Below, piece after piece: positions 6,448 to 28,224 of a stretch of 28,224 bases of DNA (within the stretch, counting starts at the first letter, position 1; each line of letters begins with the position of its first letter). The DNA is from Candidatus Omnitrophota bacterium (GTDB lineage Bacteria > Omnitrophota > JACPQZ01). The stretch lies in the NCBI GenBank assembly GCA_016190205.1, contig JACPQZ010000002.1:1-28224 (forward strand), read 5' to 3'. The position numbers and the translations under genes were made by a program. The notes under the pieces are model-generated. The model was not told the DNA's origin. It ran no database searches and saw only the letters and a program-made list of their open reading frames with translations.

Positions 6448-7209
6448 TAGCTGTGAACTCTGCTGCGTACTGCGTGACGATTTGGCCATTAGGTTTCTAA
6501 CCTTCTCGAGATCCTCCGGGGTATCGACCCCGATCGAGTCGTGCTCGGCCTCGATCACCTTGATTCGGACGCCGTGCTCGAGGGCGCGCAGTTGCTCAAG
6601 ACGCTCCCGCCGCTCCGAGTCGGTTACCTGCCATTTCGAAAAGCGGAGCAAAAATTCACGCCCGTATCCATAGATTCCTAAATGCTTGTAAGGTTTGTCG
6701 CTGGTCGCTGGTCGCTGGTCGCTGGCATCCAATATCCGCGCAAAGCGCGTGGCATAGCCCTGTTTGTCTGTGAATACCTTTACGCAGTTCGGATCGTTAA
6801 GAGTGGCCTCATCGCGGATCCGGACCTTGGCGGTGGCCATCTCGAGAGCGGGGTCCTTCTCAAAAAGCTCCGCCAGGCGGTCAATGAGGCCGGGGTCCAT
6901 CAGGGGTTCGTCCCCCTGCAGGTTGATGACAACGTCGGCTTGCCGCCGACCGAGGACCTCGGCAATCCGGTCGGTTCCGCTTGCGTGGTCCGCCCGCGTC
7001 ATCTCCACACAGACTCCATTTTCGTTTCCTTTAAAAACAGCCGCGATGCGCCTATCATCCGTCGCGACTACCACCCCGGAAATGCGCCGCGCCTTTTGGG
7101 CCCGCTCCACCACATGCCGGATGAGGGGCTTTCCGGCCAGATCCGCCAGGGGCTTGCCCGGAAAGCGCGTCGAGCCGTAGCGCACGGGGATCACACAAAT
7201 TATCTTCAC
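6445..7209 (-). CDS. kdsB: CMP-Kdo synthetase (3-deoxy-manno-octulosonate cytidylyltransferase)
   Basis: KdsB activates Kdo with CTP to CMP-Kdo. The N-terminus IPVRYGSTRFPGKPLADL is the family nucleotide-binding signature; QGDEPLMDP, GIYGYG and EHDSIGVDTPEDLEKV also match. I start at the GTG at 7209, placed exactly before the conserved N-terminus (KIICVIPVRY) and preceded by GGGGA; the upstream frame is repeat-coded. The protein then has 254 residues, the normal length. Residues about 162-171 are encoded by four TCGCTGG heptamers and lie where relatives have an IP(W/Y)xR segment before the conserved YKHLGIYGY, so this loop appears replaced. The enzyme may still work, but that is uncertain. 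Confidence 0.92.
6698..6725. repeat. Heptamer array inside kdsB, four exact TCGCTGG units
   Basis: Four perfect copies lie within the kdsB reading frame and translate to about SDQRPATSD. The frame is kept on both sides. The same unit occurs at 11548-11599. Confidence 0.9.
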
Positions 7210-10524: not shown

Positions 10525-11541
10525 TTAGGTGCTCTGGTATCTGGTCTCTGGTATCTTCTGGTCTCTGGTTACTGGTTTCTGGTCTCTCTCTAGAAGTTCT
10601 GTCGCCGCTCGCATGACCATCTCCGGGCCCAGATTTTGCATGCACTCATGATGGTAAGGGCACTGGGCCTTTTCGCAGGGGGAGCAGGCGAGGTCCAGCC
10701 TCACCACGCGGTGCCCGGGCCCGCGCGGCGCGCACGTCGACGGGTCGGTGGGTCCGAAGATACTCACCGTCATCGTGCCCACCGCCCGTGCGAGATGCAT
10801 GGGCCCCGAATCAGTTCCTATGAAAAGCCTTATGCGCCGTAAAACCTCCGCGAGCTCCTGGAGCGACGTCTCGCCGCACAGAGAAACCCAGGAATGCCCG
10901 TTCCCCTTCGGGGCTTTCTGCATGAGACGTCCCACCAGACCTTGGTCATCCGAGCCGCCGATCCACACGATGCGATAGCCCTTCCCGGTCAGGGCGCGGG
11001 CTACGGATTCAAATCCCTCCTGGGTCCATGTCTTGAGCGTGCTCCTAGCCCCCGGGCTCATAACGATGATGTCCTCGCCGGGCAGGACACGCTTGGAGGA
11101 CAAGAGCTCATCCACCCGGTGGACGGCCTCGTGAGTTCTGGGAATGAAGTACACCTCTTCCGTCTCGACGCCCAGCCTGGATAGGTACGCCAGATGCCGG
11201 TCCACGCAGTGAAGTTCCTTCCGATTCTTAAGCGGGTAAACGAGGGATGCCGCCGGATGACCCAAAAGAATAGGAATAAGCGTATGCCTCAAATCCACCA
11301 CCTGGTCAAACTTTTCACGGCGCAGTGACAGGATGAGACGCCATTTTTCCGCCAGAGAGGACTTCTTATCATACGCGATGACCCGGTCTATCCCGGGCGC
11401 GCCTTCAAAAAGCCCTGCCGCCCGCGGCCCCGCGAGCACGGTCAAACGCGCGTACGGGTATTTCTTAAAAAGGTTGGCAATGACAGGCGTCGTGAGGATG
11501 ACGTCCCCAATATTGGTTAATGTAACCAAAAGGATTTTCAT
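10525..11541 (-). CDS. GT9 glycosyltransferase, heptosyltransferase type (copy 3) with a repeat-coded tail
   Basis: The 338-residue protein opens MKILLVTLTNIGDVILTTPV and carries LFIGTDSGPMHLARAVGTM, SIFGPTDPSTCAP and a WaaF-like cysteine motif (CSPCEKAQCPYHHECM). The last about 20 residues (after ATELLERD) are encoded by the CTGGTAT heptamer array at 10534-10585 and have the array's repetitive character, so the original C-terminus was probably at or near this point. The start overlaps the stop of copy 4 by four bases (ATGA). Confidence 0.9.
   Translation of the reverse strand: MKILLVTLTNIGDVILTTPVIANLFKKYPYARLTVLAGPRAAGLFEGAPGIDRVIAYDKKSSLAEKWRLILSLRREKFDQVVDLRHTLIPILLGHPAASLVYPLKNRKELHCVDRHLAYLSRLGVETEEVYFIPRTHEAVHRVDELLSSKRVLPGEDIIVMSPGARSTLKTWTQEGFESVARALTGKGYRIVWIGGSDDQGLVGRLMQKAPKGNGHSWVSLCGETSLQELAEVLRRIRLFIGTDSGPMHLARAVGTMTVSIFGPTDPSTCAPRGPGHRVVRLDLACSPCEKAQCPYHHECMQNLGPEMVMRAATELLERDQKPVTRDQKIPETRYQST
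10534..10585. repeat. Heptamer array, CTGGTAT family, in the 3' end of GT9 copy 3
   Basis: Units CTGGTAT, CTGGTCT, CTGGTAT, a three-base break, then CTGGTCT, CTGGTTA, CTGGTTT, CTGGTCT. The related family is found as an inverted pair at 26183-26300. The array is translated in the tail of the gene. Confidence 0.85.
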
Positions 11542-12557
11542 GGCCTGTCGCTGGTCGCCTGCCCTGAGCGATGTCGAAGGGCTGGTCGCTGGTCGCGGGC
11601 AACCGAAAGGAGCTCTTGGGCGCGCCGGAAGACCTCCTCCACTTGAATCGCGTCCATTCCCCGGCGGGAGCTTAAGACATGCGCATGAGGTCCGATGGGG
11701 CCGGTGAGCTCCGGGCGGGTGGGCCCGAAGAGCGCGAGCGTGGGCGCCCCCACACCCACCGCGATGTGCATGGGCCCCGTATCGTTCGCGACGACGAGCT
11801 GGGCCCGGCGCATGACCCCCCCGAGCTCGCCCAGGGAAGTCTTCCCGCAGAGGGAGATGACGCCCGGCGCGCTCCCCAATTTGACCTCTTCTCCCAGGGC
11901 CTGATCCTTGGGGGCCCCCGTGATGACCACCTGATATCCTGTGCGTTCCACAAAAAGGCGCGCCAGCTCCGCGTACCGGCCGGGCGGCCAGCGCTTAGGT
12001 GTCCAGTTTCCTCCGGGATTGATGACCACGAGCGGCCGGTCTGGGCGGATCCCCTCCGCCCGGAGGAGTTCGTCCGCCCTGCTTTCATCTCCCGACTCCA
12101 GGTAGAATCTATAGAATCGGTCCGAGGCATCGGCCCCGCAGGCGCGCGCGAGCCCCAGAAAATAATCCACCTTGTGTACCGGGACTTTCGGGGGTTCGAC
12201 GGCCCGAGTGAGGAGAAAACCGCGCCGCTTAGTTGCGTATCCGATCCTTTGGGGGATGCCGGCCAGGCGCATCATGAGCGCCCGCGAAAAAGAGCGGTGA
12301 AACAGGAAAACCATGTCGAAGGACTGCTTTTTAAGCGAGCGGATGAATGCCCAGATTTCCGAGAGCGAGCGGTTCCGGCGTTCATCAAAGGAGATAATAT
12401 GAGCGACGTCTGGATTCGACTTCAAGATATCCCGGCAGCGGGGCGTGACGAGGCACGTGATCCGGGACCCGGGATAAAACCTTTTGATCGCCCGGATGGC
12501 AGGGGCGGAAAAAAGCACGTCCCCGCGCCAGTTGACGTTATAGATGAGTATCTTCAT
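11538..12557 (-). CDS. GT9 glycosyltransferase (copy 4), without the cysteine motif
   Basis: This 339-residue GT9 protein begins MKILIYNVNWRGDVLFSAPAI and contains LVVANDTGPMHIAVGVGAPT and LALFGPTRPELTGP. Unlike the other four GT9 domains here it lacks the CxxC-type cysteine cluster and has SSRRGMDAI in the corresponding stretch. The last about 20 residues are encoded by TCGCTGG heptamers and an inserted 20-bp palindrome-like element. It overlaps copy 3 and the deacetylase gene by four bases at either end. It is probably a core heptosyl or related sugar transferase; the donor is not certain. Confidence 0.87.
   Translation of the reverse strand: MKILIYNVNWRGDVLFSAPAIRAIKRFYPGSRITCLVTPRCRDILKSNPDVAHIISFDERRNRSLSEIWAFIRSLKKQSFDMVFLFHRSFSRALMMRLAGIPQRIGYATKRRGFLLTRAVEPPKVPVHKVDYFLGLARACGADASDRFYRFYLESGDESRADELLRAEGIRPDRPLVVINPGGNWTPKRWPPGRYAELARLFVERTGYQVVITGAPKDQALGEEVKLGSAPGVISLCGKTSLGELGGVMRRAQLVVANDTGPMHIAVGVGAPTLALFGPTRPELTGPIGPHAHVLSSRRGMDAIQVEEVFRRAQELLSVARDQRPALRHRSGQATSDRP
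11548..11599. repeat. TCGCTGG heptamer array interrupted by a REP-like 20-mer
   Basis: TCGCTGG and TCGCCTG (11548-11561) are followed by the 20-mer CCCTGAGCGATGTCGAAGGG (11562-11581). The heptamers then resume as CTGG, TCGCTGG and TCGCGGG to 11599. The 20-mer has CCCT/AGGG ends and resembles a dispersed CCCTGAGC...GTCGAAGGG repeat that I recall from many bacterial genomes. It appears nested inside the heptamer array. Confidence 0.75.
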
Positions 12558-13303: not shown

Positions 13304-15463
13304 TTATTTCGTATTTCGGATTTCGGATTTGTTTCGAATTTCGAGATTCGAATTTCGGATTTTACCTTTCCGCGTCAATAGCTCTTCAACCACTCTTAAA
13401 ACCTGCTCCGGCATTATGTCCCGCAGGCACTTATGGTGCTTTTTAGGACAGACCGTTTGATAACAGGGGCTGCACTCGATGCCGGTGTACAAAACCCGGT
13501 GGCCGTCGCCGGGGGGCATGTGCCGCTTGGGATCCGTGGGGCCAAAAAGAGCGACCAGGGGGGTCCCCACCGTCGCCGCAACATGGAGGGGGGCGCTGTC
13601 TCCGCACACAAAGACGTGAAAGCGGCGGATGAGTTCGACGAGCTCCGTGAGATGGGTCTTTCCCACTGCGATAATGGGTTTTGTTTTCATCTTGAGGGCC
13701 AGCTTCTGCGCCTCGCCCATCTCGCTCCGGTCCCCCGTAAGGACTACGCGCGCGCCCAGGCGGTTCGCCACGAGATCCCCTAACTCGGCAAAATACTCGG
13801 CGGGCCAGCGCTTGGAGGCCCAGCGCCCGCTCGCCCCGATATGAACCCCGATGAGGACCGGATCCTTCCCAGTCCACTCGCCTTCCAGAAAGCGATCGAT
13901 GGCCGACCCGTCCTCGGGGCGGGTCCACAACTCAAGACGCGGATCCAGGGTTTCAACACCCGCCGCGCGCAAGACCTCAAATTGGTGATCCACCGGAGGC
14001 AGGACGCGCTTAAAACCTCCGATGCCTTTATTGAGCAGGCGGCCTGTGACCTTGCGCCGGTATCCGTAGCGTTTTGGAGCCCCGCTTAAAAAAGCCAGCA
14101 CATGGGTCAAGGTGTTATTCTGCAGATCCACGCTCATGTCGATATGGCGCTTGCGGAGCTCTTCGCTGAATGAGCCGAGGGCCTTAAGGGAGCGGCCCCG
14201 GCGTTTCTTGTCAAAGGTCATGACCTCGTCCAGATAGGGGCACGCAGAGAAAAGAGAGCCATACCCGGGTTCCGTCACGAGCACGAGACGGGCCTTGGGA
14301 TATTGTGTGCGCAGCATGCGGATGCTGGGCGTCGCGAGGATAACGTCGCCCAAGGCGCTCATCTTGAAGAGGGCGATGGTCTCGCCGCCCAAGACCTCTT
14401 CATACACCTCCAAGGTTCGGTCCACCATGAGGTCCAGGGTGTATTCCGTTTCCACCTTTTTGCGCGCCGCCGTCACGATGATGCGGATGAGCTCCGGATC
14501 CGACACAAGCTCCTGGATGCGCTTGGCAAGCTCTTCGGGATCTTCGGGAGAAACCAAAAGCCCGGTCCTGCCATCTTCTATAATCTCGGCCAGCCCCCCT
14601 ACGCGGGAGGCGATGACGGGCACCCCCACCGCCTGCGCCTCGATGACCACACGGCCGAAGGCCTCGGGGACCTTCGTGGGAACCACCAGCGCGTCCAGTC
14701 CTTCCAAAATGCGGGGCACATCGTCGCGATCGCCCAGAAATTTGACCAACGGGCCCAGACCGAGACGGGCGGCGAGGTCCCTTAAACCCCGCTCATACTT
14801 TTCCTTTCCCCGCGGCGCCGTGCCCACGATCTTAACTTGAAGGCCGGGCATCTTCCGGGCAATCAAGCCCAGCGCCCGGATCAAGACCTCGTGACCCTTA
14901 AGCGGCGTGATGCGTCCGATCACGCCTACCACGGGCCCGTGCGGGTTCGGGATGCGGGGGCCCCTCCAGGTAAATCCTTTAAGATCCACCCCCCGGGGGA
15001 TAAGACGGATGTTTTCCACGGGGACTCCAAAATCTTCGGTCATGTGGCGCCCGATGCTGGAACTGGCCACGATGACGCGCGCCCCCCACGCCATGCAAGT
15101 ACTGAAGCCTCGCGCGTTGTACCAGCCGTGGCAGGTGGTCACGAACCTTACCCCCGCCATGCGGCTTGCGAAATAGGCGATCCAACCGGGGACCCGGCTG
15201 CGGGCGTGCACCAAATCGGCGCGTTCGTCCCGGAGGATCCGGGCTACCTTCCGGACCTGGGTAAATATGGACCAGGGATTTTTGCGGTGGACAGGCAGCG
15301 CATAATGCTTGACTCCGGATTTCTCAAGCTGTGCCACGAGGCGGCCGCCGCCTGATATGACCACCGCGCGGTGGCCTTTCTGGACAAGGGCGCGCGCGAG
15401 ATCCACCGTTCCGGTCTCTACTCCACCCGAGTCAAGGGCAGGAAGGATCTGGACGATGTTCAT
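13304..15463 (-). CDS. GT4-GT9 fusion glycosyltransferase
   Basis: This 719-residue protein joins two glycosyltransferases. Residues 1-358 are a GT4 (GT-B fold) enzyme: LPALDSGGVETGTVDLA, VVGVIGRITPLKGHEVLI, and the EX7E motif with E267 and E275. Residues 361-700 are a full GT9 domain starting ETIALFKMSALGDVILATPS, with VFVCGDSAPLHVAATVG, ALFGPTDPKRH and the cysteine motif CSPCYQTVCPKKHHKCL. Two successive core sugars could thus be added by one polypeptide. The final residues (about 702-719) are repeat-coded from the array at 13307-13360. Its start overlaps the LpxL-ELM1 stop by four bases. Confidence 0.93.
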   Translation of the reverse strand: MNIVQILPALDSGGVETGTVDLARALVQKGHRAVVISGGGRLVAQLEKSGVKHYALPVHRKNPWSIFTQVRKVARILRDERADLVHARSRVPGWIAYFASRMAGVRFVTTCHGWYNARGFSTCMAWGARVIVASSSIGRHMTEDFGVPVENIRLIPRGVDLKGFTWRGPRIPNPHGPVVGVIGRITPLKGHEVLIRALGLIARKMPGLQVKIVGTAPRGKEKYERGLRDLAARLGLGPLVKFLGDRDDVPRILEGLDALVVPTKVPEAFGRVVIEAQAVGVPVIASRVGGLAEIIEDGRTGLLVSPEDPEELAKRIQELVSDPELIRIIVTAARKKVETEYTLDLMVDRTLEVYEEVLGGETIALFKMSALGDVILATPSIRMLRTQYPKARLVLVTEPGYGSLFSACPYLDEVMTFDKKRRGRSLKALGSFSEELRKRHIDMSVDLQNNTLTHVLAFLSGAPKRYGYRRKVTGRLLNKGIGGFKRVLPPVDHQFEVLRAAGVETLDPRLELWTRPEDGSAIDRFLEGEWTGKDPVLIGVHIGASGRWASKRWPAEYFAELGDLVANRLGARVVLTGDRSEMGEAQKLALKMKTKPIIAVGKTHLTELVELIRRFHVFVCGDSAPLHVAATVGTPLVALFGPTDPKRHMPPGDGHRVLYTGIECSPCYQTVCPKKHHKCLRDIMPEQVLRVVEELLTRKGKIRNSNLEIRNKSEIRNTK
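13307..13360. repeat. Heptamer array, TTTCGGA family, in the 3' end of the GT4-GT9 gene
   Basis: Units TTTCGTA, TTTCGGA, TTTCGGA, a short break, then ATTTCGA, GATTCGA and ATTTCGGA. It starts one base after the stop trinucleotide (13304-13306) and reaches about 18 codons into the gene, where it encodes the tail. Confidence 0.8.
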
Positions 15464-17565
15464 AGGAGCGCCTCGATGGCCTCTTCGATACGGGCGTCAT
15501 CTGTGACCGGGAAGCGGGAAGCGGGAAGCGGGAAGCGAGACGCAAGACCTGGGACTTGGGACTTGAGACTTGGGACCTGGGACCTGGGACCTGGGACCTG
15601 ATCCAGCATGTTATTGAGCGCCTGCTCCAGCTCAATTAGTTTGGCGCGTACCAGGCGGCCTTCGCCCTCGAGCCTCTTCAAGCTCCGGACGTGTTTGGGA
15701 GTCCCGATGCGGCCCACTTCGTACACCAGCACGCGTTTCTTAAGAGCGAGGGCCTCGCTTACCATGCTGAAACTATCCTCACTGATGACCAGAACATCGC
15801 TTAGAGACAGTATGGCGTCCATGGCCCCAGGAGGATTTTGGCGGTTGGGAATCACCACAAGATCGCACGCGCCGCACCCGTTCAGCCGCTCCGCCACGAA
15901 CCGTTCGATGGCCGGCTCGGTCCTCCTTGAGGTCGTGACCAAAAGTCCCCAGCCCCTCTTCCCGGCCGCTGTCATGAGCACGTCGAGCAGACGCTCAAGC
16001 TCGCCCCGCTCATGATAGAAACCATCGGCCGGACCCCCCAGGCAAAGGCCGAGGTACCGTTCCTTTTGCAAATTTGGAAAACGCATTCGTGAGTCTACCT
16101 TGAGCCGCTCGACGCCGTCTTCCAAAACCGGACTGGGTGCGGTATCGGTCAGTACGACGCGCGTCCCGGCCGAAGGCCGGGAAGGGCGGTCGTGCCTCGG
16201 CTGGATCACAAGGTCGAAATGGGCCGGCGCGGGAAACGCCGGTCTCATCACGCAGATGGTCTTTGAATTCGTCGCCCGGCCCAGCAGGCGGTTGACCGCT
16301 GCGACGGATGACCCGCACGAGATAAAGAAGTCCGCACACGCCCCCCGAAGAGAACCGAAACTCGCCGGGGTGAGCGCCTTTTCAAGCCACCGCCAGGCCG
16401 CGCCCGGCGACGGACGCAGGAAAAAGGTTTTGAGGGCCAGCCAAACCCGCGCCCGCTTCGATCGGTAGTGAATCTCGGAGACGCGCCAGGACGCGGGGCC
16501 GGAGCCCGCCCCGGCCGGCTCCACACGCGGCGGGCCTGGGCCGGGGCCGTCGTCTGAAAAATGCGCCGCGAGCGCTCGAATCCGCTTCAAGGCCCGCGTG
16601 CGGGCGACCCTGACCACGCGGCCGGCAATCGCGCGCGACTGGTTCAAGTGGCCTGCCTTTCCGTCCGAAAGAATCCAGACGCGGTCTTGCGGAGTCGACT
16701 TCCAGCGCTTATGGAGCCACAGCCATTGTTCCGGATTTTTTCGGATAAAACTTTCGAGGTGACCGGTAAAAACCTGGGCGCGCCTTGTAATCCACTCCTC
16801 GTCACTTTCCCCGCTCGTGTCGCCGCCGATATCCGGCAGGATATGAGACACATGCCTGCCCTGCGTGTCCCGAACGACAAACGTGGGTAACAGCGCGCAG
16901 CCCGTCCGGCGCGCGATCTCAAAGGCCCCTCGGGGCGTCGAGGTCAGACGCCCGAAAAATCGCACCCACACGCCGTTCGCCCCGCTATCCTGATCGCTTA
17001 ATATGCCGGCGCCCCCATTCTCGCGCACATGCGCGACTATCCTACGCACCTCGAACCCCTTGGTAATCACCTCACATCCGCTCAAGGCCCGCAGGCGGTT
17101 CACGTATTGATTGAGCCGGGCGTGTTTCTGCTCGCGCGCCAGGACCATGACGGGATAGCCCAGCCACGCCGCACCGAACGAACTCATCTCCCAGTTTCCG
17201 AAGTGCGCCGTCAAAAAAATGACGCCTTTTCCCTTTTCTATCGCCCTGCGGATGTTTTCCTCGCCATCCATGCGGTAGTGAGAGCGGATGCGGTCGCCGC
17301 TCAACAGGGGAAAGCGCATGACCTCAACAGCCGACTGCGCCGCATACTGAAAAACACGGCGGACCAGGACCATCGCCCCCGCGGCATCCATCTCACCCCC
17401 GAACGCAAACAAAAGATTGCGAAAGGCCACGAGGCGCCGCTTGGCAAGGCACATAAAACCCAAGTCCCCGGCCCTCCGCCCAACCCAAACGGCTGCGGCA
17501 TGCGGCAACAAGCGCATTGAGAATGATAAGAGCCTAACCCCGAGGTAGACCGCGTAAGAGCCCAT
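15460..17565 (-). CDS. LpxL-type lipid A acyltransferase fused to an ELM1-like domain
   Basis: Residues 1 to about 290 are a lauroyl/myristoyl acyltransferase of the LpxL/HtrB family. They contain an N-terminal hydrophobic stretch and the catalytic HX4E motif HFGNWE (H121, E126), then WVRFFGRLTSTPRGAFEIAR and WLWLHKRWKS. Residues 294 to about 650 match the ELM1-like (DUF1022) family: RVWILSDGKAGHLNQSRAIA, LLVTTSRRTEPAIE, VISEDSFSMVSEALALKKRV. The fusion links acylation of lipid A with a domain of unclear, possibly glycosyltransferase-like function. Residues about 655-686 are repeat-coded, and the sequence then resumes with DDARIEEAIEALL, so an array was accommodated in frame. It overlaps lpxK by 32 bases. 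Confidence 0.9.
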   Translation of the reverse strand: MGSYAVYLGVRLLSFSMRLLPHAAAVWVGRRAGDLGFMCLAKRRLVAFRNLLFAFGGEMDAAGAMVLVRRVFQYAAQSAVEVMRFPLLSGDRIRSHYRMDGEENIRRAIEKGKGVIFLTAHFGNWEMSSFGAAWLGYPVMVLAREQKHARLNQYVNRLRALSGCEVITKGFEVRRIVAHVRENGGAGILSDQDSGANGVWVRFFGRLTSTPRGAFEIARRTGCALLPTFVVRDTQGRHVSHILPDIGGDTSGESDEEWITRRAQVFTGHLESFIRKNPEQWLWLHKRWKSTPQDRVWILSDGKAGHLNQSRAIAGRVVRVARTRALKRIRALAAHFSDDGPGPGPPRVEPAGAGSGPASWRVSEIHYRSKRARVWLALKTFFLRPSPGAAWRWLEKALTPASFGSLRGACADFFISCGSSVAAVNRLLGRATNSKTICVMRPAFPAPAHFDLVIQPRHDRPSRPSAGTRVVLTDTAPSPVLEDGVERLKVDSRMRFPNLQKERYLGLCLGGPADGFYHERGELERLLDVLMTAAGKRGWGLLVTTSRRTEPAIERFVAERLNGCGACDLVVIPNRQNPPGAMDAILSLSDVLVISEDSFSMVSEALALKKRVLVYEVGRIGTPKHVRSLKRLEGEGRLVRAKLIELEQALNNMLDQVPGPRSQVPSLKSQVPGLASRFPLPASRFPVTDDARIEEAIEALL
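15509..15601. repeat. Two adjacent heptamer arrays inside the LpxL-ELM1 gene
   Basis: Four exact GGGAAGC units (15509-15536) are followed after nine bases by eight GACCTGG/GACTTGG units (15546-15601). Both lie in the coding frame, 46 bases before the stop, and translate to about 32 residues. The second family recurs around 27450-27647. Confidence 0.9.
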
Positions 17566-19931: not shown

Positions 19932-20790
19932 TTGGATGCGCCTGGTCATATGCCTTCTTGAGCCTTTCCATCGTGACGTGCGTGTACACCTGGGTCGTGG
20001 AAAGATTCTTGTGCCCCAAGAGTTCCTGCACGGATCTTAAATCCGCCCCGCGATCCAGAAGATGCGTGGCAAAACTGTGCCTTAAGACGTGCGGCGAGAT
20101 GCGCTTTGCCTGGGCGGCCTTTGAGAATGAACGGCGCACAATCCGCCGCACGCCCCCATCGCTCAATCGCCTGTTCCCGCGGCCTAAGACGAGGGGGTCT
20201 TCGACGTCACGCCGGGGACGCCTCTTTAAGTACGCGCGCACCGCGTGGATGGCCGTCTGTCCCACAGGAACTAGCCTCTCCTTCCGGCCTTTTCCACGGA
20301 CCTTGACGAGCGATCCCACGAAATCCACATCACGGATCGACAGCGCGCAGAGCTCCCCCACGCGCATCCCGGTGCTGTAGAGAAGCTCCATCACCGCCCG
20401 GTCCCTTAAGCCTAGGAGGGTGTCCCCCCGTGGAATCTCCAGTCCCGCGGCCACTTCGGCGACCGACATAAATCGGGGAAGCCGCCGGTCCAGCTTAGGC
20501 GTAGAGACCGCGGCCAAGGGATTCGCCTTCAGGTAACCGTCCCTCAACAGGAACTTAAAAAAAGATCGCAGCGAGGCGAGACGCCGGGCAATGGATCGTT
20601 GAGCGTAGTTTTTTGATTTGAGCTCCGCCAGATACTGGCGGATCTGAAGCCGGCCTATACCCTCGACAGGAAGGTCCTTGGCAAAGCGCTGGAACGCCTC
20701 AAGGTCGTTTAAGTAATTTCGTACAGTGTGGGAAGAGGCGTTACGCTCCGCTTCCAAGTAGGCGATAAACTTGCGGATGTAACGTTCCAT
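19924..20790 (-). CDS. xerC: Tyrosine recombinase XerC
   Basis: This 288-residue recombinase has the N-terminal SAM-like core-binding domain and all catalytic residues: R143 in STGMRVGEL, K167 in VRGKGRKER, H234 and R237 in HVLRHSFATH, H260 in LLGHKNLSTTQVY, and the nucleophile Y269. It resolves chromosome dimers together with a partner at dif. XerC and XerD are hard to tell apart by motif. I prefer XerC because the dprA-topA-xerC order here matches the known Bacillus arrangement. The partner Xer and a dif site are not in the window. Confidence 0.9.
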   Translation of the reverse strand: MERYIRKFIAYLEAERNASSHTVRNYLNDLEAFQRFAKDLPVEGIGRLQIRQYLAELKSKNYAQRSIARRLASLRSFFKFLLRDGYLKANPLAAVSTPKLDRRLPRFMSVAEVAAGLEIPRGDTLLGLRDRAVMELLYSTGMRVGELCALSIRDVDFVGSLVKVRGKGRKERLVPVGQTAIHAVRAYLKRRPRRDVEDPLVLGRGNRRLSDGGVRRIVRRSFSKAAQAKRISPHVLRHSFATHLLDRGADLRSVQELLGHKNLSTTQVYTHVTMERLKKAYDQAHPRA

Positions 20791-20795
20791 ACGTT

Positions 20796-20910
20796 AAATT
20801 CCAAATTCCAAATCACAAATCCCAAACAAATCATAAATTCAAAATCCAAAATTCAAAACGTCTTATCACTCCTCCGTTTGGGATTTGGTGCTTGGGATTT
20901 GGGATTTTCC
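20796..20910. repeat. Inverted pair of AAATTCC/AAATCCC heptamer arrays, hairpin between topA and xerC
   Basis: The left arm (from 20796) has units AAATTCC, AAATTCC, AAATCAC, AAATCCC and, after a break, AAATTCA, AAATCCA, AAATTCA. The right arm (20877-20910) reads TTTGGGA, TTTGGTG, CTTGGGA, TTTGGGA, TTTTCC, the inverse family. A short loop of about 20 bases lies between. The whole 126-base gap from xerC to topA consists of this structure. No gene is inside. Confidence 0.75.
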
Positions 20911-20916
20911 GCATAC

Positions 20917-22920
20917 TCACCTTGATTCTCCTGTCTGTGCCGCTTGTGCGGGTGCCTTGGGCAGCTTGTGCGTCGCGTATCGGCACTTGGGATATTGAGA
21001 ACAACCGTAAAAATAACGCCCGCCGCGCGCGCGTCGCTCCACGAGCTCCCCGTCACAACCCGGCTGGGGGCATTTGACCCCCGTCGTAATGGACTTGGTG
21101 CTCTTGCACTCGGGAAAACCCGTACAGCCCAGAAACCTGCCGTGCGGGCCGTACTTAATGGCCATGGGCTTTCCGCACTTTTCGCAGACCACGTCCGTTT
21201 TGGAAAGCTCGGCCCTGACATCCTTCATGGCGGTCTTGGCCGTGTCCACGCGGCCCATGAAGGGGCCGTAGAAGGTCTTCACGATCTCGCGCCAGTTGCG
21301 CTTCCCCTCCTCCACCTCGTCCAGCTCAAGCTCCATAAGCGCTGTAAACCCGGCGTCCATGATCTGCGGAAAGTGGTCTTTCAAAAGGTCAGTGACGATC
21401 ATCCCGAGCTCGGTGGGATGGAGCTGTCCCGACTTGCGGCGCACGTAGTCCCGCGCAAGGATGGTGGCGATCGTCGGGGCATACGTGCTCGGCCGGCCGA
21501 TGCCTTTTTCCTCGAGCATCTTGATCAGCGTGGCGTCCGAATAACGGGGGGGCGGCTGTGTAAAATGCTGGGCGGGGGTTAACTTAAGGCAATGGAGCTC
21601 CTCGCCCGCAGTAAGCGCCGGCAAATCCTTCGCACCTTCCTCATCCCAGGCCGGAAAGACCGCTAGAAACCCTTTAAAAAGAACCCTCTGCCCGCTCGCA
21701 TGGAAGAGATACTGCTTGGCCTCGACATCCACCCCCGTCTGTAGAAACTCCGCGGCCTCCATCTGGGAGCTCACAAAACGCCGCCAGATGAGGGTGTAGA
21801 GCTTCAATTGATCGGGCGTCAAAAATGCCTTGATGGAATCCGGGGTCCGGTGAACGCGGGTGGGGCGTATGGCCTCATGCGCCTCCTGTGCCCTCTTTTT
21901 GGAGCGATACTGATGCGGCTTTTCAGGCAGATACTCTTTGCCGAATGTCTCGCCGATGTAGCTCCGCACTTCCTCGAGGGCTCCATGGGCGACGTGCACC
22001 GAATCCGTGCGCATGTACGTGATAAGTCCCACGCTCCCCTCGGGCCCCAGCTCCACGCCCTCATAGAGCTGCTGCGCCACGGCCATGGTCTTCGTGGCGC
22101 CGAAGTTAAGCTGATTGTAGGAATCCTGCTGAAGCTTGCTGGTCGTGTAGGGTGCGGACGGAAATCTGCGGCGTTTGCGTTCTTCCACATCCTTGACGCG
22201 GAAAGGGGCCCCTTCCAAATCAGCCAGGATTTTCTTCGCCTCTTCCTCTTTTCTGATTCTGTGCTTATGGCCTGCGACCTGTTCCAGCTCCGCCTCAAAA
22301 GCTCCCTTCGCCTCGGGCCTCTTGGATTCCAGGGTGGCCGTGAGGGTCCAGTATTCTTCGGGTTTGAAGGCCTGGATTTCCTTTTCACGTTCGCAGATAA
22401 AGCGCAGGGCCACGGACTGCACGCGCCCCGCCGAAAGCCCCCGCCCCACTTTTTTCCAAAGGAGGGGGCTCAAGTTGTAGCCCACAATGCGGTCGAGCAC
22501 GCGGCGGGCCTGCTGGGCGTTCACCTTGTCGGTATCAATGTGCCGCGGGTGGGAAAAGGCCTCCATGACCGCGGTCTCCGTGATCTCGTGAAAGATAACC
22601 CGATGCATCTTTCTTGCCCCGTCCTCCAAGAGTTTGGCGAGATGGGCGCTGATGGCCTCGCCCTCCCGGTCAGGGTCGGTGGCGAGATACACTCCCTTCC
22701 TTCCCTCCGCGTCTTTTTTAAGCTGGGTTACCACCTTGCGCGCCTTAGGAATGATGATATATTGCGGCTCGAAATCGTGTTCCACGTCGATCCCCATCTT
22801 GGAGCGCGGGAGATCCATGACGTGCCCCATCGAGGCCGTCACCTTATAATCTGCGCCCAGGATTTTGTTGATCGTTCTGGCCTTGGCCGGAGACTCCACG
22901 ATGACGAGTGATTTAGACAT
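20917..22920 (-). CDS. topA: DNA topoisomerase I
   Basis: TopA relaxes negatively supercoiled DNA by a single-strand break. The 667 residues contain the Toprim domain (VIVESPAKA at 6-14; TDPDREGEAI at 81-90), the catalytic Y302 in LITYMRTDS, and at the end two zinc-binding domains, CEKCGKPMAIKYGPHGRFLGC and CPQPGCDGELVERRARGG with a following CSQYPKC. Length and order are normal. The ATG at 22920 overlaps the end of the four-helix-bundle gene by eight bases. In Bacillus topA directly follows dprA; here the thiS and cassette region separates them. Confidence 0.97.
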   Translation of the reverse strand: MSKSLVIVESPAKARTINKILGADYKVTASMGHVMDLPRSKMGIDVEHDFEPQYIIIPKARKVVTQLKKDAEGRKGVYLATDPDREGEAISAHLAKLLEDGARKMHRVIFHEITETAVMEAFSHPRHIDTDKVNAQQARRVLDRIVGYNLSPLLWKKVGRGLSAGRVQSVALRFICEREKEIQAFKPEEYWTLTATLESKRPEAKGAFEAELEQVAGHKHRIRKEEEAKKILADLEGAPFRVKDVEERKRRRFPSAPYTTSKLQQDSYNQLNFGATKTMAVAQQLYEGVELGPEGSVGLITYMRTDSVHVAHGALEEVRSYIGETFGKEYLPEKPHQYRSKKRAQEAHEAIRPTRVHRTPDSIKAFLTPDQLKLYTLIWRRFVSSQMEAAEFLQTGVDVEAKQYLFHASGQRVLFKGFLAVFPAWDEEGAKDLPALTAGEELHCLKLTPAQHFTQPPPRYSDATLIKMLEEKGIGRPSTYAPTIATILARDYVRRKSGQLHPTELGMIVTDLLKDHFPQIMDAGFTALMELELDEVEEGKRNWREIVKTFYGPFMGRVDTAKTAMKDVRAELSKTDVVCEKCGKPMAIKYGPHGRFLGCTGFPECKSTKSITTGVKCPQPGCDGELVERRARGGRYFYGCSQYPKCRYATHKLPKAPAQAAQTGESR

Positions 22921-23338
22921 TAAACACCGGTTGAACTTTTCTCGTGCTTCGTGCTTCGTGCATCGTGCTTCGTAAAATACGGTCCTGCGTGAGACTCTTT
23001 GATAGATTGGTCGCCATTCTCATCAAATGGTCGATGAGTTCATAGTTATAAGCGCATTTAGACTTATCGATTAGCTCGAGCTTCTCAGCAATAATCAGTT
23101 GGGTTTCCAGTTCGGCTAGTGAACCCATAGCAATGTCAAGAAAATACTTAAATTCCTTATTGCGATTTCTTTTAAATCCTTCCGCGATGTTAGAGGGAAC
23201 CGAAATAGCGCAACGTCTCATCTGTGCCGTTAAACCGTAAGCCTCGTGTCCGGGGAATGTCTCCGTTACCTTATATATTGCTACGACCAAATCGATTCCT
23301 TTCTTCCAAACATCCAGTTCTTTAAAACTTCTTGCCAT
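22913..23338 (-). CDS. Four-helix-bundle protein (S23/IVP family)
   Basis: The 141-residue protein is a typical member of the family named after proteins encoded in 23S rRNA intervening sequences; these form pentameric four-helix bundles related to Avd. MARSFKELDVWKKGIDLVV, AYGLTAQMRRCAISVPSNIAEG, KEFKYFLDIAMGSLAELETQLIIAEKL match throughout. The function is not established. The last about 20 residues are coded by the TCGTGCT array and end inside topA, so they may not be original. In 23041-23280 I count 101 of 240 bases as G or C (42%), well below the neighbouring genes, which suggests transfer. The gene lies exactly between two inverted heptamer arrays (22942-22974 and 23352-23386). Confidence 0.92.
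   Translation of the reverse strand: MARSFKELDVWKKGIDLVVAIYKVTETFPGHEAYGLTAQMRRCAISVPSNIAEGFKRNRNKEFKYFLDIAMGSLAELETQLIIAEKLELIDKSKCAYNYELIDHLMRMATNLSKSLTQDRILRSTMHEARSTRKVQPVFNV
22942..22974. repeat. Left heptamer array of the four-helix-bundle cassette
   Basis: Four and a half units of period exactly 7: TCGTGCT, TCGTGCT, TCGTGCA, TCGTGCT, TCGTA. They are translated in the 3' end of the four-helix-bundle frame. The right partner at 23352-23386 is inverted. Confidence 0.9.
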
Positions 23339-23351
23339 GATTCACTCCCTT

Positions 23352-23386
23352 TACGATGTACGAAGAACGAAGCACGATGCACGGAC
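23352..23386. repeat. Right heptamer array of the four-helix-bundle cassette, inverted
   Basis: Five units: TACGATG, TACGAAG, AACGAAG, CACGATG, CACGGAC. Read on the minus strand they give the same CTTCGTG/CATCGTG family as the left array, so the two form an inverted pair around the gene. It lies 13 bases upstream of the gene's start. Confidence 0.88.
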
Positions 23387-23405: not shown

Positions 23406-23612
23406 CTACCCCCCTCCCATCATCGTGACGATTTCCACATGATCGTTCTCTTTCAACCGAACTCGATTATACTCGCTGTGGCAGACGATCTCGCGGTTGA
23501 CTTCAACGGCTATGTTTTCCGGCCGCATCCGGGATTGTTCCAGGAACTCCTTGACCGTGACGGTCCGCGGGAGCTCCGTCTGCGTACCATTCAGTATAAT
23601 TCTAATAGCCAT
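23406..23612 (-). CDS. thiS: Sulfur carrier protein ThiS
   Basis: This 68-residue ubiquitin-fold protein ends in MMGGG, with the C-terminal Gly-Gly that is adenylated and then thiocarboxylated to carry sulfur for thiazole formation. IRIILNGTQTELPRTVTVKEFLEQ and AVEVNREIV are typical of ThiS; MoaD-type proteins usually lack this NREIV pattern. No other thiamine gene lies in the window, so it is isolated from its partners (ThiF, ThiG). It overlaps the dprA stop by 11 bases, which couples its translation to dprA. Confidence 0.88.
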   Translation of the reverse strand: MAIRIILNGTQTELPRTVTVKEFLEQSRMRPENIAVEVNREIVCHSEYNRVRLKENDHVEIVTMMGGG

Positions 23613-26182: not shown

Positions 26183-26300
26183 AGAAACCAGAAACCAGTT
26201 GCCAGAAACCAGAAGATTACAGATACCAGATACCAGAATTGTTTTTCTGGAATCTGGTTTCTGGTATCTATCTGGTAACTGGTCTCTGGTTACTGGTTTC
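26183..26300. repeat. Long imperfect inverted repeat of CTGGTTT heptamers between aroC and aroK
   Basis: The left arm (26183-26240) has units AGAAACC, AGAAACC, AGTTGCC, AGAAACC, then after a break AGATACC, AGATACC. The right arm (26247-26300) carries CTGGAAT, CTGGTTT, CTGGTAT, CTGGTAA, CTGGTCT, CTGGTTA, CTGGTTT. The arms can pair as a stem of roughly 50 bp with a tiny loop. The right arm touches the aroC stop codon. The structure fills the 132-base gap; no gene is inside. Confidence 0.85.
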
Positions 26301-27425
26301 TCAGAACTCATGTACTTGTTTTAAATATCCCTTATAGTTGCGCATCATTTCGTGGATACTGTCCCCCCCGATCTTCTCGCACAGGGCGTCCGCCATCTCG
26401 AAGGCGACCACGGCCTCGCCGATGACGCTCGCGGCCGGCACCGTGCACACATCGGAGCGCTGATAGGTCGCCTTGACCGGCTTTTTCGTGCGGACGTCCA
26501 CGGAGCGCAAGGGTCGTTTGAGGGTCGCGATGGGTTTGAGATATGCTCGCATGACGATATCCTCCCCGTTCGACATACCGCCTTCTATGCCGCCCGCGCT
26601 CTCCGTCTTCCGGTAAAATCCCCGCGACTTGGTCCAGAAGATTTCATCGTGCGACTCGGAACCCAAGGACTGCGACGAGCGGATGCCCAACCCCATCTCG
26701 ACAGCCTTGACTGTTTGAACGCTCATGAGGGCACGCGCAAGACGTCCGTCGAGCTTTCGGTCCCACTGCACGAAGCTCCCCAACCCCACGGGCGCCCCCG
26801 TGACGCGTATCTCAAAGGCCCCGCCCAGCGTATTGCCCTGGGCCTTGGCCTTATCAATGGCGCTGATGATTTTTTTCTCTACGGCGCGGTCCGGACAGCG
26901 GACCAGGGAATGTCCAATAGCCCGCGCGAGTTCCTGGGCGCTCACGGCCCTCATCTTTGCCCAAATACCCCCGATCATAACGACATAGGCGTGGACAGAA
27001 ATCCCGAACTCCTTAAGAAGGCACTTGGCCAAGGAGCCCACGGCCACGCGCGCCGCAGTCTCCCGGGCGCTTGCCCGCTCAAGGACGCTGCGGATATCCC
27101 GGTGGCCGTATTTCAAGGCCCCGGACAAATCCGCATGGCCCGGCCGCGGCTCAAAGACCGGCGGCAGGCGGTCAATGGTATTGTCCTTATTCTCGATTTG
27201 GATCGCGATGGGCGAGCCGATCGTGACTCCCGATCTCAAACCGCTCAAAAAATGCACGCGGTCCTTCTCGATCTTCATGCGGGCCCCGCGTCCATACCCC
27301 TGCTGGCGGAGCTCCATGTCGCGGTCGATCGACTCCACGTCGACCTTAAGCCCCGCCGGCATGCCTTCGACCGTCGCGACTAAACACTCGCCGTGGGATT
27401 CTCCAGCCGTTAGGTATCTCAACAT
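26301..27425 (-). CDS. aroC: Chorismate synthase
   Basis: AroC converts 5-enolpyruvylshikimate 3-phosphate to chorismate with reduced FMN. The 374 residues show LTAGESHGECLVATVEGMPAG, ELRQQGYGRGARM, RPGHADLSGALKYGHRDIR, SARETAARVAVG, and GGIEGGMSNGEDIV with TYQRSDVCTVPAASVIGE. ATG at 27425 has GGAGTG seven bases upstream. It heads the shikimate trio, with a 200-base gap to the prepilin peptidase gene. Confidence 0.97.
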   Translation of the reverse strand: MLRYLTAGESHGECLVATVEGMPAGLKVDVESIDRDMELRQQGYGRGARMKIEKDRVHFLSGLRSGVTIGSPIAIQIENKDNTIDRLPPVFEPRPGHADLSGALKYGHRDIRSVLERASARETAARVAVGSLAKCLLKEFGISVHAYVVMIGGIWAKMRAVSAQELARAIGHSLVRCPDRAVEKKIISAIDKAKAQGNTLGGAFEIRVTGAPVGLGSFVQWDRKLDGRLARALMSVQTVKAVEMGLGIRSSQSLGSESHDEIFWTKSRGFYRKTESAGGIEGGMSNGEDIVMRAYLKPIATLKRPLRSVDVRTKKPVKATYQRSDVCTVPAASVIGEAVVAFEMADALCEKIGGDSIHEMMRNYKGYLKQVHEF

Positions 27426-27449
27426 GTCGTCACTCCATAATTACTAGTC

Positions 27450-27477
27450 ATGTCCCATGTCCCAAGTCCCAAGTCAG
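27450..27477. repeat. Left heptamer array of the remnant cassette, ATGTCCC family
   Basis: Units ATGTCCC, ATGTCCC, AAGTCCC, AAGTCAG. On the minus strand this is GGGACAT/GGGACTT, the inverse of the right array at 27613-27647. Confidence 0.82.
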
Positions 27478-27488
27478 ACGGTGGAAAT

Positions 27489-27590
27489 TTACTTCCGCGC
27501 TGTAACCGTAAGTACGGCATCGTCACTGCCATTCAAATAACGAATAAATCCATGAATGAGATTCTTTACCTCAAATCGTTCAATCTTCAC
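27489..27590 (-). pseudogene. Likely internally deleted remnant of a four-helix-bundle gene
   Basis: A 33-codon frame starts at a GTG (27590) preceded by AGGGG and ends at TAA. Its first residues MKIERFE match the usual N-terminus of a common subgroup of four-helix-bundle proteins. Its next stretch, KNLIHGFIRYLNGS, resembles their C-terminal helix (typically a LISGFIKYLK-like sequence). The whole central bundle is missing. The stretch is AT-rich compared with the neighbouring genes and lies between inverted heptamer arrays, just as the intact gene at 22913-23338 does. The homology is from my memory of family patterns, so it needs a profile search. Confidence 0.5.
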
Positions 27591-27612
27591 TTCCTAATCC
27601 CCTACTTCCGTT

Positions 27613-27647
27613 GACCTGGGACCTGGGACATGGGACCTGGGACATGG
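27613..27647. repeat. Right heptamer array of the remnant cassette, GACCTGG family
   Basis: Five units: GACCTGG, GACCTGG, GACATGG, GACCTGG, GACATGG. The same family is present inside the LpxL-ELM1 gene at 15546-15601. It ends two bases before the prepilin peptidase stop codon. Confidence 0.85.
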
Positions 27648-27649
27648 AA

Positions 27650-28224
27650 CTATAAGTACGGAAATAAGTATCCCAGTAGGTCATTCCCCCACAGGAGCGT
27701 GATCATCGCGGCCAGTGAGAGAAACGGGCCGTACGGAATCAGCTCCGCCCCGTAGCGAACCCTCTGGTACACACCCACCACCGTGCCGAAGAAGGGGGCC
27801 AGGAAAAAGACGAGGATCACAAGTTTCCAACCCAGGAAGGCGCCGATCATAGCGAGAAGCTTGACGTCCCCCCCGCCCATGCTCTCCTTCTTAAAAACCA
27901 AATTTCCAAAAAGGCCGATCAGGTAGATCGACCCGCCCCCCGCCACAATGCCCAGACCTGAATCCAGAAGCGCCCCCCAACGGTTCACGGCGCCGTGAAG
28001 CTCCGGCACGAGCGCGCTTGCCGCTAGGCCAACTAGAATTCCCGGAATCGAAATTTCATCGGGAATGATCTGGTGATCCAAATCAATGACCGTCACAATA
28101 ACAAGCGCGGCGAATAATCCCGCCGCAATGAGCCACAGGGCTGAAATCCCATAAAAAAAATAAAGCCCCAAAAAACCCAGGGCCAGCACGAGCTCGACCA
28201 GAAAGTATCGCACCGGTATGGGGG
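27650..28224 (-). CDS. pilD: Prepilin peptidase, C-terminal part (cut by the window edge)
   Basis: This integral membrane aspartic protease cleaves and methylates type IV prepilins and related pseudopilins. The visible 191 codons begin with IPVRYFLVELVLALGFL, which in relatives lies after the cysteine-rich N-terminal domain, so the frame is open at the right edge and the gene starts outside the window. Both catalytic aspartates are visible: VTVIDLDHQIIPDEIS and MGGGDVKLLAMIGAFLG. Several membrane helices follow. The internal GTG at 28213 is not a credible start. Confidence 0.92.
   Translation of the reverse strand, partial: PIPVRYFLVELVLALGFLGLYFFYGISALWLIAAGLFAALVIVTVIDLDHQIIPDEISIPGILVGLAASALVPELHGAVNRWGALLDSGLGIVAGGGSIYLIGLFGNLVFKKESMGGGDVKLLAMIGAFLGWKLVILVFFLAPFFGTVVGVYQRVRYGAELIPYGPFLSLAAMITLLWGNDLLGYLFPYL

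Follow-up and report, generated by a model that had tools for sequence, protein, structure and literature searches.

A four-helix-bundle IVP gene framed by inverted heptamer arrays is probably a mobile element that lacks a transposase

The IVP gene of the window (the whole 28,224-nucleotide stretch of DNA analyzed here, contig C21 of a 1.65-Mb genome that is 92.8% complete) and the two heptamer arrays that flank it probably make up a single transposase-less mobile element of ~0.45 kb, which we call an IVP-heptamer element. As we picture it, an element of this kind would end in complementary arrays of a lineage-specific heptamer, would carry as its sole gene one for a four-helix-bundle protein of the 23S rRNA intervening sequence (IVS) family, would insert mainly between genes along the direction of host transcription and would leave behind arrays and IVP-less, MITE-like hairpin derivatives. 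The IVP gene family and its rRNA-resident form are already known. In the searchable literature we found no account of the intergenic class of elements, of its heptamer ends specific to each lineage, of deleted derivatives or of target duplications.

Results

The IVP gene and its position upstream of topA

The minus strand of the window carries, in order, dprA, a thiS-like gene (23406-23612), the IVP gene (22913-23338, 141 aa) and topA (20917-22920), whose start overlaps the end of the IVP ORF such that this ORF terminates 8 nt within topA. The original prediction of an S23/IVP-family four-helix-bundle gene was borne out by a match of the protein to the profile of the 23S rRNA IVS protein (PF05635, S23p-like) with E=2e-37 and 127.9 bits over residues 6-110 (positions 23009-23323), which exceeds the curated cut-off of 33.8 bits over the whole domain. 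The predicted contrast in base composition also holds, with 42% G+C in the gene and 59% in the window. The nearest solved relative, XCC0516 of Xanthomonas (PDB 2gsc, E=2e-24), is a homopentamer of four-helix bundles according to the Coxiella IVS paper (PMC4990558). IVP is the sole ORF of the window element, and a profile search found no transposase domain in it, the notable matches being only PF05635 and an Avd-like one. Among IVP proteins E53 and E76 (window protein numbering) are invariant and N50, S73, Q39, R42 and S46 are conserved at 95% or more; since this polar set is nearly invariant, a catalytic role of IVP stays conceivable. The spacing of Q39, R42, S46, N50 and E53, and of S73 and E76, is that of one helix face, which is unusual in a purely structural bundle.

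Examination of the topA junction in 29 relatives agreed with the expectation that the genes flanking IVP in the window are adjacent elsewhere: topA has dprA directly next to it in seven and thiS ahead of it in about ten. An IVP gene occupies this junction in none of the 29, so conserved presence of the gene there, which would have spoken against the original reading, was not observed. At the same position upstream of topA, other genomes from the phylum carry heptamer arrays or mini-hairpins that lack IVP (L158, L161, L164 and L166). The junction upstream of topA may thus be a recurrent landing site, as these observations suggest.

Matched inverted arms at the window locus

Upstream of the IVP gene, the 5' arm is a heptamer array that reads CGTGCATCGTGCTTCGTTCTTCGTACATCGTAAA on the sense strand (23350-23383, minus strand), and the inverted array that forms the 3' arm reads CGTGCTTCGTGCTTCGTGCATCGTGCTTCGTAAA on the plus strand (22943-22976, assigned to the minus-strand element) and lies within the 3' end of the IVP ORF. 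Each arm is 34 nt long, the two are 85% complementary with a single heptamer family inverted on both sides, and a perfect 17-nt stem core (22957-22973 pairing with 23367-23383) mirrors the order of variant heptamers. The original claim that the gene is enclosed by inverted arrays of one heptamer is therefore right about the arms, but not about the enclosure, since the ORF extends over the left array which, read as coding sequence, supplies the C-terminus of IVP. In the minimum-free-energy RNA fold of the element (-131 kcal/mol, z=-2.6), the closing stem is made by the arms.

Because period-7 arrays are frequent throughout the genome, a single array next to a gene says little, and the test needs matched inverted pairs. 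In 295 kb, sampled as stretches of the 1.65-Mb genome and used for both array counts and control ORFs, we counted 84 strong period-7 arrays compared with three in shuffled sequence; periods that are not multiples of 7 gave zero or one array nearly throughout, and period 17 gave eight. The inverted-repeat score at the window locus was 21.5, and the median at 64 IVP loci was 17.25, compared with 8.5 for control placements of the same geometry (control 99th percentile, 13). Four of the genome's five IVP genes but only three of 228 other ORFs in the 295 kb scored at least 15 (Fisher p=1.4e-6), and two of those three sit between two elements of the CCAG family described below. The specific feature of IVP genes is thus the matched inverted pair of arrays and not one array.

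Arms at IVP genes across phyla

The enrichment of inverted heptamer arms at IVP genes, proposed originally as a check, was strong in the phylum of the window and beyond it. Forty-five of the 64 loci, which come from this phylum and others, exceeded the 99th percentile of 436 control placements drawn from the same loci, and 28 more loci from other phyla, a set that overlaps the first at a few loci, had a median score of 19 (control, 8.5). All eight cyanobacterial and Riemerella plasmid loci that were examined first carry arms. When loci were pooled without overlaps (n=94, from at least seven phyla; sources include the window phylum, Bacteroidota, Cyanobacteriota, Planctomycetota, a Nitrospinota MAG, Aliivibrio and an alphaproteobacterial MAG), the median was 18 for an element's own arms and 8 for mismatched arms taken from different elements, and 73 loci had inverted arms with a score of at least 13. 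Arms were not detected at about one fifth of the 94 loci. The repeat period was 7 at 62 loci, 8 at nine, 9 at one and 10 at one, so that the predicted 7-bp period describes most elements and needs widening to 8-10 for some. At a Bacteroidota MAG locus (L108) the arms or arrays at the IVP gene are built of the 10-mer CAACCCTCAT, and at a Maribacter locus (L100) an array of about ten units of the 8-mer ACTGTTGG is present on one side of the IVP gene only. No IVP relatives were found in phages. Cultured hosts of IVP elements include Nostoc, Trichormus, Maribacter and Confluentibacter.

Copies and deleted derivatives in the same genome

All five IVP genes of the window's own genome were read; inverted arms flank four of them and are built of a heptamer that differs from gene to gene (GCGTACT, CGTGCTT, TGAGTGATG-type and CCAGATA), and arms were not detected at the fifth and most divergent (L005). 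The CCAG family is represented by ~14 copies in the sampled 295 kb, typically as a hairpin of two ~54-nt two-block arms with a short loop between them. One copy carries an IVP gene (L083:12213-12685), and a second has lost the bulk of that gene (L083:10968-11198). Since the deleted copy retains a piece of IVP, the IVP-less hairpins include gutted IVP elements. A third copy (L083:19852 to the contig end) matches the full one at 124 of 124 nt and has an unrelated 5' flank. The full and deleted copies have ~30 nt in common past the 3' arm, so the CCAG duplication may have taken some flank along.

Three IVP-less inverted pairs were found in the window itself: a MITE-like pair of the CCAG family (26183-26301), whose IVP-bearing relative is the L083 copy, one of the AAATTCC family (20789-20914) and one of the CATGTCC family with a 135-nt spacer (27449-27650). 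Composite elements, in which CCAG-family arms surround inverted heptamers of another family (TTCGAAAT-type), recur as a unit at several sites (L073:19563-19825, L074:10562-10835, L078:54-328 and L083:14-206). Arrays also enter coding sequences in frame (window positions 6697-6725, 10533-10587, 11581-11599, 13305-13362 and 15508-15600); for example, kdsB gains ...DQRPATSD..., and the C-termini of several glycosyltransferases are array-encoded peptides.

The number of heptamer arrays in this genome, which far exceeds that of its five IVP genes, and the many inverted pairs that have no IVP are what one would expect if the heptamer hairpins were an independent STRR- or MITE-like repeat and separate IVP genes landed in, or recombined into, pre-existing inverted arrays. 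We consider this improbable. The IVP fragment kept by one IVP-less CCAG element speaks against it, as do the array-free empty sites and the distribution of arms across genomes described in the next two sections.

Filled and empty sites

The filled/empty pairs that we compared all come from cyanobacterial plasmids, the window junction having no close relative for comparison. At site 1, the element lies in a conjugation operon of Trichormus variabilis plasmid C and of Scytonema NIES-4073, and the plasmids of Aulosira, Fremyella and Nostoc carneum, ~97% identical around the site, are empty, reading AAAAAGTAATTAACAAAT with the array absent. The filled allele reads AAAAAGTAAT, the element (AAATCAGAATTCAG ... 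GAGTTCTTCTTT) and GTAATTAACAAAT, with a duplication of GTAAT; the element starts AAATCAG and ends TTCTTT, and a deleted remnant of it is present in plasmid E of Nostoc C052. Site 5 is filled in plasmid a of Nostoc ATCC 53789 and empty in plasmid c of the same strain; the empty allele is GGTTCTAGGTTATG, again array-free, and the filled one reads GGTTCTA, the element (AATCAG ... TCTGGA) and TTCTAGTTATG, with a duplication of TTCTA. Five-bp target duplications were legible at these two of the eight sites compared, which hold related elements on plasmids. The same TCAGAAG-type element has inserted a third time at site 7, into the 3' end of a gene on Aulosira plasmid 2, with empty and filled alleles. 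Presence/absence pairs were also obtained for sites 4 and 8, as well as for sites 2 (cas6-cas4) and 6 (cas10-cmr3); at the last two the empty alleles are too divergent for the junctions to be read. IVP elements occur in CRISPR operons twice between cas6 and cas4, with different heptamers, and once between cas10 and cmr3, with relatives that have none; the loci concerned are L121, L175 and L167, and the two cas6-cas4 insertions are independent. Homing-like replacement was considered for site 3, where the element is 99% identical and its flanks are 83-88% identical, and was dropped since sliding identity showed that the high-identity block runs past the element.

In the empty alleles of sites 1 and 5 no array awaits the gene: gene and arms arrive jointly, contrary to what separate IVP genes entering older arrays would produce. 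Together with the copies in the window's own genome, these pairs, in which arrays occur in the filled state only, support the mobility that had been offered originally as inference, and they establish that the elements insert, duplicate and decay as a unit. The idea of a new small element likewise survives, as a gene-bearing element with heptamer inverted ends, with the amendment that IVP-less derivatives belong to the system.

Arms follow the IVP lineage

Comparison of arms across genomes also goes against an independent repeat, since arms go with the lineage of their IVP, whichever genome it resides in. Arm similarity was 0.24 for pairs within one genome and 0.38 for an IVP and its nearest relative in another genome, and it was 0.61 for IVP pairs at least 65% identical compared with 0.21 for all pairs. 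Similarity rose with IVP identity (Mantel r=0.188, with none of 500 permutations as high), and r was -0.08 when one arm set was read antisense. Related IVPs with like arms include L011 and L012 (CGTATCT), L006 and L046 (CTAAGCT), and L001 and L029 (CGTACAG). The 3' arm of the window, in its 36-letter plus-strand form TCGTGCTTCGTGCTTCGTGCATCGTGCTTCGTAAAA, has an exact copy in an alphaproteobacterial MAG (L093), where it forms the 5' arm of an IVP element and where contamination of the MAG is possible; the 30-nt core of TCGTGCTTCGTGCTTCGTGCATCGTGCTTCGTAAAA was found in none of the 195 genomes of the window's phylum that were searched. This co-variation suggests that IVP may recognize its own arms. 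Joint descent of the whole unit predicts an identical pattern, and the co-variation is thus no proof of recognition.

In a tree of 92 IVP sequences, weakly resolved given its few columns, IVPs group by phylum but not cleanly, with 15 label changes compared with a minimum of six and 37 after shuffling.

Orientation and strand bias

Where neighbors are co-directional, 56 elements lie in the sense and five in the antisense orientation by crude ORF calling (p=6e-12), compared with 13:7 for Y1 transposase genes from the window's phylum, a small control (Fisher p=0.0075). Since ordinary operon genes are co-directional too, this bias is supportive but no proof of an RNA step. In 73 elements the sense strand of the 5' arm averages 33% G and 13% C, with G exceeding C in 58 (p=4e-7).

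Sense orientation in operon-like runs would also fit a host gene whose stem is regulatory, that is, an IVP-bound site of RNase III cleavage, termination or autoregulation, with mobility incidental or ancient. The RNA fold closed by the arms, the correlation of arms with IVP and the overlap of the IVP ORF with the start of topA all point the same way. A host gene of this kind is nevertheless very improbable given how IVP is distributed: it is patchy, occurring in 114 of the 193 genomes surveyed with 1-14 copies in each, it is missing from the same junction in relatives, plasmids that are 97% identical differ in whether they carry it, with a target duplication where they do, degenerate and deleted copies exist, and phyla are mixed in the IVP tree.

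Candidate moving enzymes

No catalytic partner of the IVP-heptamer element was found among the enzymes examined. The elements could be ordinary non-autonomous repeats mobilized by a known enzyme, an IS200/RAYT-type Y1 or other IS transposase, with IVP a passenger. REPIN/RAYT sets a precedent for an enzyme paired with small palindromes, and Y1 genes do co-occur with IVP, being present in 102 of the 114 IVP-bearing genomes and in 52 of the 79 others (p=1e-4). We nonetheless regard this as unlikely. Twelve IVP-bearing genomes have no Y1 gene, and one genome (G132) has 14 IVPs and neither Y1 nor reverse transcriptase. Only one of 29 Y1 genes of the phylum has period-7 arrays, the flanks being REP-like and non-heptamer. 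Y1 transposases are not known to leave a target duplication, and the arm sequences of different elements bear no relation to one another, a variety that would not be tolerated by a transposase with sequence specificity. Y1 transposase was accordingly set aside as the mover: it is correlated but not required, and its genes bear other repeats. The Y1/RAYT genes (L176-L204) often have long, REP-like inverted repeats of up to 50 nt that start with GGGGAC or GTCCC. Reverse transcriptase was rejected as well, as an RVT_1 search of the window's own genome gave no match and its occurrence in 193 genomes was uncorrelated with IVP (30 of 114 with IVP compared with 17 of 79 without, p=0.5).

Discussion

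A transposase-less element with lineage-specific ends raises the question of how it moves. By analogy with the Coxiella IVS in vitro, the arms in read-through transcripts of the IVP-heptamer element would pair as a long stem that RNase III could cut, releasing the IVP RNA and sparing the host operon. IVP, a pentamer in the solved relative, may recognize its own arms, and re-insertion could rely on an enzyme of the host, or one resident in it, whose staggered cuts are ~5 bp apart. Selection on the stem might maintain arm complementarity, as might template-switch correction from one arm to the other. We advance with some reserve the further proposal that IVP itself is the mobility protein of a transposase-less class and recognizes lineage-private heptamer hairpin ends, probably as RNA or single-stranded DNA; the rRNA IVSs might then be its rRNA-resident members, and at least some bacterial intergenic arrays, cyanobacterial STRRs included, its gene-less remains. 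A class of IVP-heptamer elements would give a shared origin to two old puzzles, the purpose of the S23/IVP protein of 23S rRNA IVSs and the source of the heptanucleotide repeats found in cyanobacteria and in numerous uncultured phyla. It would also make the suggested mobility of IVSs testable, in a system that offers defined ends, target duplications, deleted derivatives and cultured hosts.

Comparison with known systems

Unlike an insertion sequence, the IVP-heptamer element encodes no transposase. The window IVP is weakly related to Avd (PF22296; E=1.3e-4, below the cut-off), the accessory protein of diversity-generating retroelements and likewise a four-helix bundle, but the reverse transcriptase that accompanies Avd is absent from the window genome by the RVT_1 search. 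REPIN/RAYT systems and MITEs resemble IVP elements in having, besides a gene-bearing copy with inverted ends, numerous hairpins of that family that carry no gene. However, RAYT is a Y1 (HUH) transposase and REPs are palindromes of 20-40 bp, whereas IVP has no known catalytic domain, its arms are tandem lineage-specific heptamers and Y1 genes lie elsewhere, without heptamer arrays.

Intergenic heptamer arrays of the TAACTGA type have been described in Beggiatoaceae, Cyanobacteria and Bacteroidetes (PMC4679880). These and the cyanobacterial STRRs are, like the arms of IVP elements, patchy 7-bp tandem arrays between genes in several of the same phyla, but they were described as stand-alone, and S23 or four-helix-bundle genes are unmentioned in that paper. 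Among searchable open-access papers, only the one on the Coxiella IVS links such genes to heptamer arrays.

The closest counterpart is that IVS, in the 23S rRNA of Coxiella burnetii, which has a 28-bp terminal stem, tandem GACAGAT heptamers that vary in number by strain and an S23p ORF, is excised by RNase III in vitro and was called a 'selfish element' by its authors, who repeated earlier suggestions of mobility (PMC4990558). Shared traits are the gene family, a size of ~430 nt, complementary termini (a ~28-bp stem), variable-number heptamers beside the ORF, the sense orientation and suspected horizontal mobility. The Coxiella IVS differs in that it sits in helix 45 of 23S rRNA as a single copy with a decaying, apparently untranslated ORF, whereas IVP-heptamer elements lie between protein genes, have mostly intact ORFs, form several families per genome and have IVP-less derivatives; the window element, accordingly, is found between thiS and topA and not in a 23S rRNA gene (helix 9, 25 or 45). 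Since the plan of terminal stem, heptamers and S23p ORF is the same, 23S rRNA IVSs of the Coxiella type are, by this analogy, probably IVP elements that landed in rRNA and now reside there.
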